Source of the DNA: an uncultured Rubritalea sp.
Lineage (GTDB): Bacteria; Verrucomicrobiota; Verrucomicrobiia; Verrucomicrobiales; Akkermansiaceae
Reading direction: 5' to 3'
Length of the DNA: 62,907 nucleotides
NCBI GenBank assembly: GCA_937923145.1
Contig: CALAJT010000011.1
Location: forward strand, 1 to 62,907
The translations under genes were made by a program, and so were the position numbers. Below the pieces are notes generated by a model. The model was not told the DNA's origin. It saw nothing but the letters and a program-made list of their open reading frames with translations, and ran no database searches. Shown piece after piece: positions 54,453 through 62,657 of the stretch (position 1 is the first letter of the stretch; every line of letters begins with the position of its first letter).

Positions 54453-54569
54453 ATTGAGGATTCTTCAGTAAGAATCACAGCGTCAAACCCAGCTTTTAAA
54501 GATATGATACATATTGTCGATCAAGGAATGAAGCAGTATCACAACACACTTACTGAACTTGCTAAGTAA
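54453..54569 (+). pseudogene. C-terminal remnant of an AbrB/MazE-type antitoxin
   Basis: The frame is open from 54453, just after a stop at 54450-54452, for 38 codons to a TAA at 54567-54569. It reads VRITASNPAFKDMIHIVDQG and ends MKQYHNTLTELAK. This matches, from memory, the tail of AbrB/MazE-family antitoxins that pair with Doc (the pattern RxTxxxPxF, then an M-x-Y-x-x-L-x-x-LAK end). The N-terminal DNA-binding swapped-hairpin domain, about 45 residues, is missing and not found in other frames upstream, where a promoter-like sequence lies instead. The stop overlaps the doc start (TAATG), the usual operon arrangement. Confidence 0.6.
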
Positions 54570-54913
54570 TGGAACCGAATTGGATTCCTAAAAACCTGGT
54601 TTTTGCTTTGCACAATAAACTTCTACACAGGTATGGAGGGTCAAATGGAGTCCGCGATGAAGGATTGTTAGAATCAGCATTATCAAGACCAGAGCGGTTG
54701 TACCATTATGAGGAAGCCTGCCTATATGCTATAGCTGCATCCTATTGCTTCAGAATTGTAAAAAATCATCCATTTATAGATGGTAATAAACGAACGGGTT
54801 TTATGGCTGCTTTTACCTTCTTAGGCGTAAATGGACACCACCTCATTGCAACCGAAGCTGATGCACTCATACAGAACGTTGGCTTAGCTTCTAGTGCTAT
54901 TACTGAACAGTAA
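54569..54913 (+). CDS. doc: Doc-family (Fic fold) death-on-curing toxin, probably shortened by a nonsense codon
   Basis: Doc toxins phosphorylate elongation factor Tu. The Fic motif HPFIDGNKRTG (residues 67-77) is intact, and the N-terminus (PNWIPKNLVFALHNKLLHRYGG) is normal. The frame stops at residue 114 after AITEQ, but reading through the TAA at 54911-54913 gives YADWLSTSCKQK and a second stop at 54950. That tail matches the usual Doc C-terminus (xxEQEYADWL-like), so TAA probably replaced GAA. The full product would be 127 residues, the usual size. The partner antitoxin is headless, so the locus appears to be decaying. Confidence 0.75.
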   Translation: MEPNWIPKNLVFALHNKLLHRYGGSNGVRDEGLLESALSRPERLYHYEEACLYAIAASYCFRIVKNHPFIDGNKRTGFMAAFTFLGVNGHHLIATEADALIQNVGLASSAITEQ

Positions 54914-55253: not shown

Positions 55254-57176
55254 CTATTCTTCGATCAACTCTCCAGTAGCGTAGGCTTCTAGAAGCTCTT
55301 CAAGCGCATCGATCTGCTTCTGGATACCTCTTCCCTTTTCAGTATCTTTGATAAGCCTTGGTGTATCATGCTTGCGAATATCTTGCATCGTAGGAATGAT
55401 ATCTTCACCTGTTCTGACTACTGATACGGGGTCTCGAAAACTATGGTGCTCAGCTAGCTGGACGCCATCTGGCGATAGGATGAGTGTGTAGCCACGGTCT
55501 CCGTAAGCTTCTGAGAATGCTCCATCTATAGTTACGGCATTACCTCCCCGCTTCACAGGGTTTTCACCTGCTTCTACCTTTACTGGCACATGTCCATTTA
55601 CGATAAGTCCCTTCTCTGCAACTCCCATATCACGACAAACTTTATCGCAGAACTCAGCATCATGAAGTTTCTCAAACCATGGATTACGGATCTCTTTGTG
55701 AGTCGTTTTATCATCGATAAAATAAGCCTCAAACGTAGCCATTCTGTCTTTACCGAAGAGTGGCGACACTGGACCCGCCCATAAATAGAAGAACCAGTCT
55801 TTATCATCCTGACTAGCATTTGAACCCTTACGGAATGAGCGTTTAATCACTCGGTCAAATGATTGGAATTGCTTCACACCTTTGACTTCTTCACCGTCTA
55901 TTGTGAGAGACAAATATTCACCTTCTTCATCCACAGGTATACATGCATGGAAAATGACTGCTCTATCCTTCACCATCGACATCTTACCTCTCTCTGCAAC
56001 CCATGACATCTGCTCCCAGAGTCTAGAAGAACTCACGAAGGACTCCACTAAGCGATCCATACATTGTTGTTCTTCTGGAGAAAGTTTGTTCGGATCACTA
56101 GGATCGATTGTTGGAAAATGAGTGTCTCTCAATGGGTATTCTTTACCCTTAATTATAATTGTCCCACGATCATAATTTATTTTCTTCAACACATTTCGAT
56201 CATCCATATTCCACTCTGGATGCCGTTCTATCATTTGTCCTTCCAGCTTGAATTGAATAATGCTAATCGCCTTTTGCATCCGTGAAATGAGTAACTCACT
56301 ACGCTCACCACCCCGCTTCGGCTTAAAGTATTCTGCATCGTCATCCCCATATACATCCATCGCTAGTAATTCTAACACTCTAGTCAGAATACCATAGCCT
56401 TCTTCTAACTGAAACATCCTACGGTATCTTAACGAAACCCTGAGAACGATGGCTATCAATGCTTCATGACCTAAGCAAGCACCCATCCAACTGACGTCAT
56501 GGTTGCCCCATACTAGAGAGACATTACTCTGTCTCATCAAGTAATCGATCACCCAGTCGATCCTGGCACCACGATCGCCTAGGTCACCTGCTACCACGAG
56601 TTCATCTACAGTTAAATTCCTAATGAATCTTGAAGCAGCCCTTACTGGCAAAAGATCCATCTTACGCTTCACTAACTCCTTCACCTGAGTTGTTAGATAA
56701 ACTTCATGGTGACCACCCGCTGGAAAATTGAGCAGTACCTCGAATAATTCTCTAAATTCCTTTGGAGCGTAATTGCGAATTTCCTTACGACGTTTAGTAC
56801 GCATCTCAAAACGGATAAGATCGAACTGATACTTCATAGTCTGCATCACCCACTCATATCGAGCGTCATCATCATCGCCAAATTCTCCGACCTTTTTCTG
56901 TAGTAGCTGTGTAGGATAGTAGAGCAGGTGGAGAAATTCTTTAAACTCTACTTTCGTCATCCGATCAGCGAAGAGTTCCTTTACGATAGGTCTAAGTCTA
57001 CCTGACGCATTATTAATAACGTGACGTAGTTTTCTAGCCTCTCCATGAATATCAGAAATCACATGCACGACACCTTTAGGCATCTCTAACTGTGCTTTTA
57101 AAGCTGATATTTCAAATACTACAGACTCTGTAGTAGGAAAACTTTTTGCTAAAATTTGGTGTATTAAATCTGCCAT
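55254..57176 (-). CDS. fbp: Fructose-1,6-bisphosphatase class 3
   Basis: This is the large, calcineurin-like FBPase first known from Bacillus, which dephosphorylates fructose 1,6-bisphosphate in gluconeogenesis. Metal-binding motifs are GVVHVISDIHGEARKLRHV, VAGDLGDRGARIDWV and VWGNHDVSWMGA. 640 residues is the normal size and distinct from class 1 and 2 enzymes. It lies 69 bases behind the HAD-FolB gene on the same strand. Confidence 0.95.
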   Translation of the reverse strand: MADLIHQILAKSFPTTESVVFEISALKAQLEMPKGVVHVISDIHGEARKLRHVINNASGRLRPIVKELFADRMTKVEFKEFLHLLYYPTQLLQKKVGEFGDDDDARYEWVMQTMKYQFDLIRFEMRTKRRKEIRNYAPKEFRELFEVLLNFPAGGHHEVYLTTQVKELVKRKMDLLPVRAASRFIRNLTVDELVVAGDLGDRGARIDWVIDYLMRQSNVSLVWGNHDVSWMGACLGHEALIAIVLRVSLRYRRMFQLEEGYGILTRVLELLAMDVYGDDDAEYFKPKRGGERSELLISRMQKAISIIQFKLEGQMIERHPEWNMDDRNVLKKINYDRGTIIIKGKEYPLRDTHFPTIDPSDPNKLSPEEQQCMDRLVESFVSSSRLWEQMSWVAERGKMSMVKDRAVIFHACIPVDEEGEYLSLTIDGEEVKGVKQFQSFDRVIKRSFRKGSNASQDDKDWFFYLWAGPVSPLFGKDRMATFEAYFIDDKTTHKEIRNPWFEKLHDAEFCDKVCRDMGVAEKGLIVNGHVPVKVEAGENPVKRGGNAVTIDGAFSEAYGDRGYTLILSPDGVQLAEHHSFRDPVSVVRTGEDIIPTMQDIRKHDTPRLIKDTEKGRGIQKQIDALEELLEAYATGELIEE

Positions 57177-57245: not shown

Positions 57246-58244
57246 CTACCTCACCACTTCTACTCCCACACTATCCGTATCAGGAAGAATATACTTCTCT
57301 ATTTCCACTCGCACACTCTCTACAGCAAAATCAGCTTTGATCATATCGGCCATATCTACAGCTAGCGTTTCGATCAGCTTACGAGGTTTTTCTAGAGCTA
57401 GAGATTTGATACGTAGCGAAACTTGATAGTAATCAACTCCTCCGTCAATTTCATCATTTAGCTCTCGAAAGCCGACCTTAGGGTGCATATCTACATGGAC
57501 TTTGAGAGTCTGCTGTTCAGCACGTTCTTCATCAGGAACACCTATAAATGTAGGGACTTCAAGACCACGTATTTTTACCGCTGCTGGTTTTTCAAAAGTC
57601 TCCATCCATGAGCCACCGACTACATGATCAGATAAAACCTCCTCCATCACTGAAAGGTCTTTCACCATCACAGTCGGCTCTGATGTAGCGAGGACTGACG
57701 CTCTATTGTAACCTGTCACCACGCCCACACTCATGATGCCGCCATGATGAGCAGTTTCTATGTCGTGCTTCATGTCACCTACGAAAACAGTATCGCACTT
57801 ATCCATTCCGTGGTTTTCAATGATCTCACCGATCAATTCACGCTTATCTAGAACTCCGGAGTAAGTCTCTGTGAAATAATCCTCCATTCCAAGATCCACT
57901 ACTTGCTCCGCAAATGCCTTAGCACACATACTAGTTAGAATATAAAGCTCAGCACCACTATCTAAAAGAAAATGGAGAAATTCACGCGCATGAGGCAGCA
58001 CCGTGACTGGCACTTTTGAGATACTAAAACCTCTTCTAAAATGAGATTCTATCTCTTCCATATTTTCTCCAGGAAGATAGATCTTATAAAAATCTCTATA
58101 TGGTAAGCAGAAATTCTCACGGAATTCATCACGATCAATCGCAGGTTTTCCATATTGCTTAAGCACATAATTAGTAGCATCTACTACTAATCCCATATCG
58201 TCCACCAATGTGCCCGACCAATCAAATATCCATTGATTTCTCAT
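57246..58244 (-). CDS. HAD phosphatase-dihydroneopterin aldolase (FolB) fusion
   Basis: Residues 1-~205 are a HAD-superfamily phosphatase: FDWSGTLVDD (D8, T12) is motif I, LTSMCAKAF motif II, K134 in LDKRELIG motif III, and VFVGDMKHDIETA (D157, D161) motif IV, with a helical cap (~20-85). The residue two after D8 is Ser rather than the usual Asp, a notable variation. Residues ~222-332 are a FolB domain: TFIGVPDEERAEQQ (E240 aligns with the FolB catalytic-site Glu), Y272, and K317 in EIEKYILPD matching the conserved Lys. FolB cleaves dihydroneopterin in folate synthesis, and the fused phosphatase could remove the phosphate just before. The next gene is DUF721-like (10-base gap). Confidence 0.85.
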   Translation of the reverse strand: MRNQWIFDWSGTLVDDMGLVVDATNYVLKQYGKPAIDRDEFRENFCLPYRDFYKIYLPGENMEEIESHFRRGFSISKVPVTVLPHAREFLHFLLDSGAELYILTSMCAKAFAEQVVDLGMEDYFTETYSGVLDKRELIGEIIENHGMDKCDTVFVGDMKHDIETAHHGGIMSVGVVTGYNRASVLATSEPTVMVKDLSVMEEVLSDHVVGGSWMETFEKPAAVKIRGLEVPTFIGVPDEERAEQQTLKVHVDMHPKVGFRELNDEIDGGVDYYQVSLRIKSLALEKPRKLIETLAVDMADMIKADFAVESVRVEIEKYILPDTDSVGVEVVR

Positions 58245-58254
58245 TAAATTCTCA

Positions 58255-58713
58255 TTAAATTCTTAGTGTAATTACTTTCACGACTCCCTCACCGAGTTCG
58301 CGTCGGAAGTTTTGCAGCAATTTACCTTTCATTTGTTCTAACTGAAATTTTAGCGTAGGCTGGACTACCCTAAGTACTAGCACTCCCTTTTTAAGCGACT
58401 CAGGTTTGGCATTTTTGGCAATGAAATCCCCCGCTACTTTTAGCCAAGCATCTTGTAGTTGCTTTTCCTCCAGTCCACCAGTTGCTCCTAATTCTTCGAG
58501 GATCTTATCTAGGCTCTCTGCAGCATGGGAAATATTGCGGATAGGATCTTTGACAGGCTCAGCTAGACGCCATTGCTTTAATGTCAAAGCTCGCAACCAA
58601 TCCCCTTTAGGAATAAATTGCGAGCCTCTTTTAAATTTGTTTACACCAGATCCTCCAGTCTTATCTGGACTAGATCTGAAGCGCTTATTTCGGTCTGGAC
58701 GATTACTCTCCAT
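58255..58713 (-). CDS. DUF721/DciA-like protein
   Basis: A 152-residue basic protein with the DUF721 core in the C-terminal ~95 residues: LDKILEELGATGGLEEKQLQ through WLKVAGDFIAKNAKPESLKK and VLVLRVVQPTLKFQLEQMKG. DUF721 includes DciA, which helps load the replicative helicase in bacteria lacking DnaC. The N-terminal part is basic and disordered. The start overlaps the end of the ferredoxin gene by 11 bases, so the two are coupled. Confidence 0.8.
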   Translation of the reverse strand: MESNRPDRNKRFRSSPDKTGGSGVNKFKRGSQFIPKGDWLRALTLKQWRLAEPVKDPIRNISHAAESLDKILEELGATGGLEEKQLQDAWLKVAGDFIAKNAKPESLKKGVLVLRVVQPTLKFQLEQMKGKLLQNFRRELGEGVVKVITLRI

Positions 58714-62174: not shown

Positions 62175-62657
62175 TTATGATCTGTCGGAAAATGATTTTA
62201 GAAATCCTGAGTGCCCACCTTTAATTGCGAAGAAACCATCAGCAAGTGCCGTAATTTGTATACTTTTTACTTTTGCAGGTTTTAAGGTAAAAAGGAAAAT
62301 TATAATAACTGGTATTATAAAAAGCACACTAGAAAAGATCATTGCTAAATAGATCGATAAAATTGCTATAAAAAATACAAAAATCACTCTAGATAGTTGC
62401 TTATTAGATAGTTGCTTCTTATACCCTCTATCAAAGTAAAGACTGAAACAGGTAGACTTATTCCAAAGCTTCGAGGTAGCCACAGTTTCTGGGACAGGGA
62501 CACCAGTTTTGAAGAAGACGTTTGGTGATTCAAAATCAGGCTCACAATAGAATACCTCACCGACTCGATATGCAGTGCTAGGCTTTTTATGCACTTCTGG
62601 TGTTTGAGTGATTTGATCACTCGGTGTCATAGGTGCTTGGTACGGATTGGATTCCAT
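62175..62657 (-). CDS. Small membrane protein with NPYQAP N-terminus
   Basis: A 160-residue protein. MESNPYQAPMTPSD matches a leader seen in many PVC small membrane proteins. Two adjacent hydrophobic helices lie at ~90-108 and ~110-125 (VIFVFFIAILSIYLAMIFSS). The function is unknown. DNA at 62390-62419 is a tandem duplication of 15 bases (one mismatch) that gives the repeated residues KQLSNKQLS. The expressed strand is minus and the gene stands alone. Confidence 0.6.
   Translation of the reverse strand: MESNPYQAPMTPSDQITQTPEVHKKPSTAYRVGEVFYCEPDFESPNVFFKTGVPVPETVATSKLWNKSTCFSLYFDRGYKKQLSNKQLSRVIFVFFIAILSIYLAMIFSSVLFIIPVIIIFLFTLKPAKVKSIQITALADGFFAIKGGHSGFLKSFSDRS

Follow-up and report, generated by a model that had tools for sequence, protein, structure and literature searches.

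A motif-I serine HAD phosphatase fused to dihydroneopterin aldolase in Rubritalea, a candidate dihydroneopterin monophosphate phosphatase

We analyzed a stretch of 62,907 nucleotides (hereafter, the window) from an uncultured Rubritalea sp. of the Verrucomicrobiota, which forms contig C11 of a genome of 2.70 Mb and 92% completeness. It carries a gene that encodes, in a single chain, an HAD phosphatase and the folate-synthesis enzyme dihydroneopterin aldolase (FolB). The gene, its parts and the gene upstream of it are as follows.

57246..58244, minus strand: HAD-FolB fusion gene, 332 amino acids plus stop, ATG start
57627..58244, minus strand: HAD half, residues 1-206, C1-capped HAD phosphatase fold
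58209..58223, minus strand: motif I, D8-W9-S10-G11-T12, with Ser where a second Asp is usual, invariant in alignment A1
57582..57626, minus strand: linker, residues 207-221, of low model confidence (predicted local distance difference test, pLDDT)
57249..57581, minus strand: FolB half (dihydroneopterin aldolase), residues 222-332, Pfam FolB at E 9.7e-21
58255..58713, minus strand: dciA-like gene, 10 bp upstream of the HAD-FolB gene, Pfam DciA at 2.1e-14

An initial annotation had described the gene as an HAD phosphatase fused to FolB, and this was confirmed using Pfam, which placed HAD_2 (residues 6-175, E 2.1e-22, 80.6 bits against a gathering cut-off of 23.8) and FolB (residues 223-330, 74.8 bits against 31.8) in one open reading frame (ORF), with no internal stop codons between 57246 and 58244. 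In the predicted model, mean pLDDT was 70 at residues 201-210 and 53 at residues 211-220, the region of the linker. Five named GTDB records (L074-L078) hold the same continuous HAD-FolB ORF, of 323-328 amino acids, and so an assembly slip is unlikely, and we rejected both chance and such a slip as the source of the fusion. Both domains are intact, and their catalytic-type residues are kept except for the serine in motif I.

Looking at the FolB half, E240, Y272, E292 and K317 were invariant among 30 fused proteins; we equate these with the Glu, Tyr, Glu and Lys that serve catalysis in known dihydroneopterin aldolases, an assignment with which an alignment to the M. tuberculosis enzyme agrees. 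The A2 profile retrieved the M. tuberculosis dihydroneopterin aldolase 1nbu at 1.1e-19. The half scored above the cut-off of the FolB-domain model TIGR00526 (59.4 bits against 45.05) and below that of the FolB equivalog model TIGR00525 (62.5 bits against 72.15). Thus, it shares with known FolB enzymes the domain and the catalytic-type residues, but differs from them in bearing an N-terminal HAD phosphatase and in scoring slightly under the equivalog cut-off. A FolX-type epimerase is less likely, as the FolX model PRK11245 gave 42.1 bits against a cut-off of 152. Three family f8 genomes encode FolB as the C-terminal part of a 303-amino-acid protein with a different N-terminal domain (L238:1456-2367, L240:940-1851 and L241:1450-2361), presumably one resembling a putative molybdenum carrier.

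The fusion is the sole FolB found in the window's genome, which also encodes FolE2 (GCHY-1, 4.4e-97) and FolK (1.9e-30) and in which no FolE of the PF01227 type was found. Given that FolE2 and FolK are present and that the only FolB is this fusion, folate synthesis probably proceeds via the HAD-FolB protein.

The HAD half has a C1-capped fold, and its motif I reads FDWSGT (D8 W9 S10 G11 T12). Across the 37 sequences of alignment A1, no variation occurs at D8, W9, S10, G11, T12, D16, N25, F41, F45, L47, P48, Y53, S105, K134, G156, D157, M158, H160, D161, G178 and Y179. The nucleophile D8, S105 of motif II, K134 of motif III, and D157 and D161 of motif IV are therefore all complete and invariant, while the second motif-I Asp, the acid/base, is absent, Ser10 taking its place in 37 of the 37 sequences. 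Since this holds throughout the alignment, the half is an HAD-fold enzyme whose motif I departs from the norm, and not a canonical DxD phosphatase.

The serine had already been pointed out in the initial annotation as needing explanation, and it proved to be fixed across the family. DWSGT was present in all 30 loci that were retrieved by profile and not by motif (L162-L191, one of them being the window itself), and it was seen in 136 of 137 HAD-bearing loci, the exception (L053) being truncated at its N-terminal end. The two distant HAD matches in the window's own genome read DLDGT and DFDGT. Of the phylum, 387 genomes were searched with the HAD profile; 54 matched at 1.0e-68 or better and the next match reached only 2.9e-31. 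The HAD half thus belongs to a sharply bounded Verrucomicrobiota family with an invariant DWSGT, and as the motif-I Ser is a fixed family trait, it is no local defect and demands an explanation in terms of mechanism. Nine proteins have long N-terminal extensions before DWSGT (L082, L104, L111, L138, L197, L204, L207, L208 and L209); judged by eye, with no profile search made, these look like frames open from early alternative starts and not like domains.

The initial annotation had also called for a survey of HAD-FolB fusions. In a set of 58 genomes tallied by eye (excluding the contig-edge fragment G031 C87, and with neighbors beyond contig ends invisible), 49, the window's included, carry a DWSGT HAD; it is fused to FolB in 18, adjoins folB on the same strand in 22, lies apart from it in eight, and in one genome, which is 82% complete, no folB was detected. 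None of the 28 other HAD matches in this set has an adjoining folB. A first GTDB scan with the single window protein confirmed no relative. GTDB loci were then found with patterns including DWSGTL[VA]D and GDMxHD, so that the motif is partly built into them, whereas the 58- and 387-genome searches are free of this. We examined 140 loci, of which 137 held the HAD: 80 named loci, the best of 481 GTDB matches by likeness to the window protein, and 57 others, some of which come from the same genomes as the named ones. Among the best 80 of 481, 75 have the HAD fused to or beside FolB, comprising 21 HAD-FolB fusions, 35 fusions of the HAD to a NUDIX domain with folB next to them and 19 HAD genes with folB next, and the other five are HAD-NUDIX fusions without folB nearby. 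The other 57 loci divide into 15 HAD-FolB, nine HAD-NUDIX with folB next, 18 HAD with folB next, four HAD-NUDIX without folB nearby and 11 with the HAD alone. In the 387-genome sample, FolB was present in 54 of 54 strong HAD carriers as against 291 of the 333 other genomes, counts that ignore kinship and come from a search scoring at most eight candidates per genome, so that single absences are not firm. Two genomes of genus g3 lost both HAD and FolB; we did not use them as evidence, since HAD and FolB share one gene in the g3 genomes inspected and one loss thus removes both.

The second fusion adds a C-terminal NUDIX domain to the HAD in 40 of the best 80 of 481 GTDB loci, and Pfam confirmed the NUDIX domain in eight of eight HAD-NUDIX proteins tested (E 1.3e-16 to 3.6e-23). 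Passages of PMC1971073 and PMC5389931 describe the dihydroneopterin triphosphate pyrophosphatases known from L. lactis, Arabidopsis and E. coli as NUDIX enzymes. As the fused domain has the fold of these pyrophosphatases, the HAD is joined to a candidate for the preceding step as well as to the enzyme of the following one, and the fused NUDIX may act on dihydroneopterin triphosphate. Neighboring pterin steps are likewise joined in one chain in Parachlamydia UWE25, for which Table 2 of PMC1971073 flags FolQ as well as FolB as a fused protein, the two probably being fused to each other; there, a NUDIX enzyme of the FolQ/NudB type is joined with FolB, whereas the window joins the HAD with FolB and its relatives join the HAD with NUDIX. 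In one genome (L058:3506-5097, G016), an RppH-like NUDIX gene, an HAD gene and folB stand in a row on one strand.

Five NUDIX matches in the window's genome exceed the cut-off; by eye, four of them appear to be an RppH-like, a MutT-like and an MTH1-like protein and a segment of a KsgA-like one. The last of these is a 449-amino-acid frame (L226:1189-2538, G000:C22) that reads as a KsgA-like rRNA methyltransferase with a C-terminal NUDIX domain. A stand-alone copy of the fused NUDIX was sought in this genome and none was found at E 1e-8. The first step may fall there to a different NUDIX enzyme or to one outside the NUDIX family; XTP/dITP diphosphatase, for one, is counted as a form of FolQ in a passage of PMC10339729.

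The initial annotation had proposed a dihydroneopterin phosphate phosphatase, and the repeated HAD-FolB fusion, the adjacency of HAD and folB and the HAD-NUDIX fusion all support this candidacy at the level of sequence and gene arrangement. A phosphatase that is repeatedly fused to, or found beside, the enzymes on either side of the monophosphate step most likely performs that step, and we therefore consider the HAD half to be, probably, a pathway-dedicated 7,8-dihydroneopterin monophosphate phosphatase. Under this assignment, a FolE2-type GTP cyclohydrolase would make dihydroneopterin triphosphate and a pyrophosphatase would remove pyrophosphate from it; the HAD half would then take off the remaining phosphate, with D8 forming an aspartyl-phosphate, and the FolB half would cleave dihydroneopterin to 6-hydroxymethyl-dihydropterin, for FolK. 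The substrate and activity of the HAD half, and a possible transfer of product from one half to the other, are what we infer from these data, and it is a speculation that the aromatic cap residues F41, F45 and Y53 could suit the flat pterin ring.

Several observations weigh against this assignment. The NudB (dihydroneopterin triphosphate diphosphatase) model gave the fused NUDIX domains only 26-38 bits against a cut-off of 103 in four of four tested, and NudI or PRK08999 outscored it in all four. Of the 31 checked genomes lacking the fusion, the window's included, 30 showed nothing matching the fused NUDIX at E 1e-8, and the remaining one had only a weak match (1.7e-10). FolB is still present in eight of the nine HAD-lacking genomes of the 58-genome set, as it is in the 291 phylum genomes without a strong HAD match, and since FolB is this common without the DWSGT HAD, other enzymes must do the monophosphate step there. 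The HAD gene and folB are separated in eight of the 49 HAD-bearing genomes, as they are in six of the six genomes checked in family f8. Finally, Ser10 takes away the usual acid/base of HAD phosphatases.

The alternative that survives best, though we consider it improbable, is that the HAD half serves another pathway, such as the unassigned dephosphorylation of riboflavin synthesis or the disposal of phosphoglycolate, and that only reasons of supply place it in one chain or transcript with FolB. Dephosphorylation in riboflavin synthesis is done by HAD enzymes elsewhere, 11 of the 57 loci mentioned above have the HAD with no folB nearby, and the nearest solved relatives of the HAD half are generic or phosphoglycolate phosphatases. 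The latter point comes from a fold comparison of residues 1-214 that re-examined Foldseek's own matches, such that absence from that list excludes nothing. Against this stands the fact that the HAD has two different covalent partners, both of which fit pterin synthesis. A preference for phosphoglycolate was the alternative that the initial annotation had named as refuting its proposal, and the sequence does not favor it: phosphoglycolate phosphatase models gave at best 56.6 bits against curated equivalog cut-offs of 180-466, on which we rejected this identity, yet phosphoglycolate phosphatases are among the nearest solved folds. Compared with the C1-capped HADs of the phosphoglycolate phosphatase group (2ah5, 3sd7, 2hsz and 2nyv), the HAD half differs in its motif-I Ser in place of the second Asp, in its family-specific cap residues F41, F45, L47, P48 and Y53, and in scoring under the family-model cut-offs.

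Less probable still is a reversed order, in which FolB would cleave the phosphorylated pterin to yield glycolaldehyde phosphate and the HAD half would dephosphorylate the latter. A DWxGT motif like that of phosphonoacetaldehyde hydrolase (PhnX) would fit a small aldehyde substrate, but the NUDIX partner in particular would not be needed, and whereas PhnX uses a cap Lys, A1 has no invariant or nearly invariant Lys in the cap region of its 37 sequences. As the PhnX model gave 23.5 bits, far under its curated cut-off of 220, and the cap Lys is missing, a PhnX identity was rejected as well. That the HAD half is non-catalytic or regulatory, as the Ser10 of all A1 members might suggest, is very unlikely, since D8, S105, K134, D157 and D161 are all invariant and some active HAD enzymes (P-type ATPases, PhnX and LHPP) carry other residues at the second-Asp position.

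Going beyond the assignment of the dedicated dihydroneopterin monophosphate phosphatase, we tentatively picture the DWSGT HADs as such phosphatases assigned to a gene and as the hub of a mix-and-match NUDIX/HAD/FolB pterin module. The Ser-for-Asp site might be tuned to the pterin, for example if protonation of the leaving group were aided by the invariant H160 or by a hydroxyl of the substrate, and a FolB oligomer might carry the phosphatases around it, with the product passed on locally. This fuller picture is possible, and we hold it with some doubt.

To follow the fusions through the family, we used a quick tree of 127 HAD domains (the 137 less 10 that were identical to others or too short). 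On this tree, at least seven changes are needed for the HAD-FolB label, of which well-supported branches force four, and 12 for the NUDIX fusion, so that the HAD-FolB fusion arose or was lost more than once. HAD-NUDIX genes with folB next to them are present on either side of the midpoint root, and the three-function module may therefore be ancestral, the NUDIX domain having been lost where the HAD fused to FolB. Support is weak for many of the inner branches and the rooting is by midpoint only, so the order of fusion events is no more than a suggestion.

Regarding the surroundings of the gene, the dciA-like gene and the HAD-FolB gene are probably in one transcript. A dciA lookalike, judged by eye, is also found upstream of an HAD-NUDIX gene (L039:4657-5205) and of a lone folB (L212:5689-6057). 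Directly downstream of HAD-FolB, window positions 55254-57176 encode a Firmicute-type fructose-1,6-bisphosphatase (Pfam FBPase_2, 2.6e-198). Elsewhere in the window are a 114-amino-acid ORF with HPFIDGNKRT, by eye a Doc/Fic-type lookalike (54569-54913), and a 160-amino-acid ORF with no Pfam match at E 0.1 (62175-62657). A scan of the window found no riboswitch or other Rfam family at gathering score.

The premise of the initial annotation, that the second dephosphorylation of folate synthesis is often left without an assigned phosphatase, is borne out by passages of PMC1971073 (2007), PMC5372827 (2017) and PMC6451014 (2019), which give this step to a non-specific phosphatase. A passage of PMC10339729 (2023) states a specific phosphatase, without a gene name there, and a figure legend of PMC13259868 (2026) marks the pterin phosphatase as unidentified. 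We recognized no report of an HAD-FolB or HAD-NUDIX folate fusion, or of such a phosphatase gene, in the literature searched, which mostly excluded subscription papers.

Taken together, the window presents an HAD phosphatase whose motif I is unusual, in a pathway that is already known, and the gene arrangements make its role testable, directly with one purified protein. Its invariant motif-I Ser would show how an HAD phosphatase manages without the usual acid/base, and a dedicated enzyme, if true, would fill the monophosphate step for many Verrucomicrobiota, including Akkermansia from animal guts.
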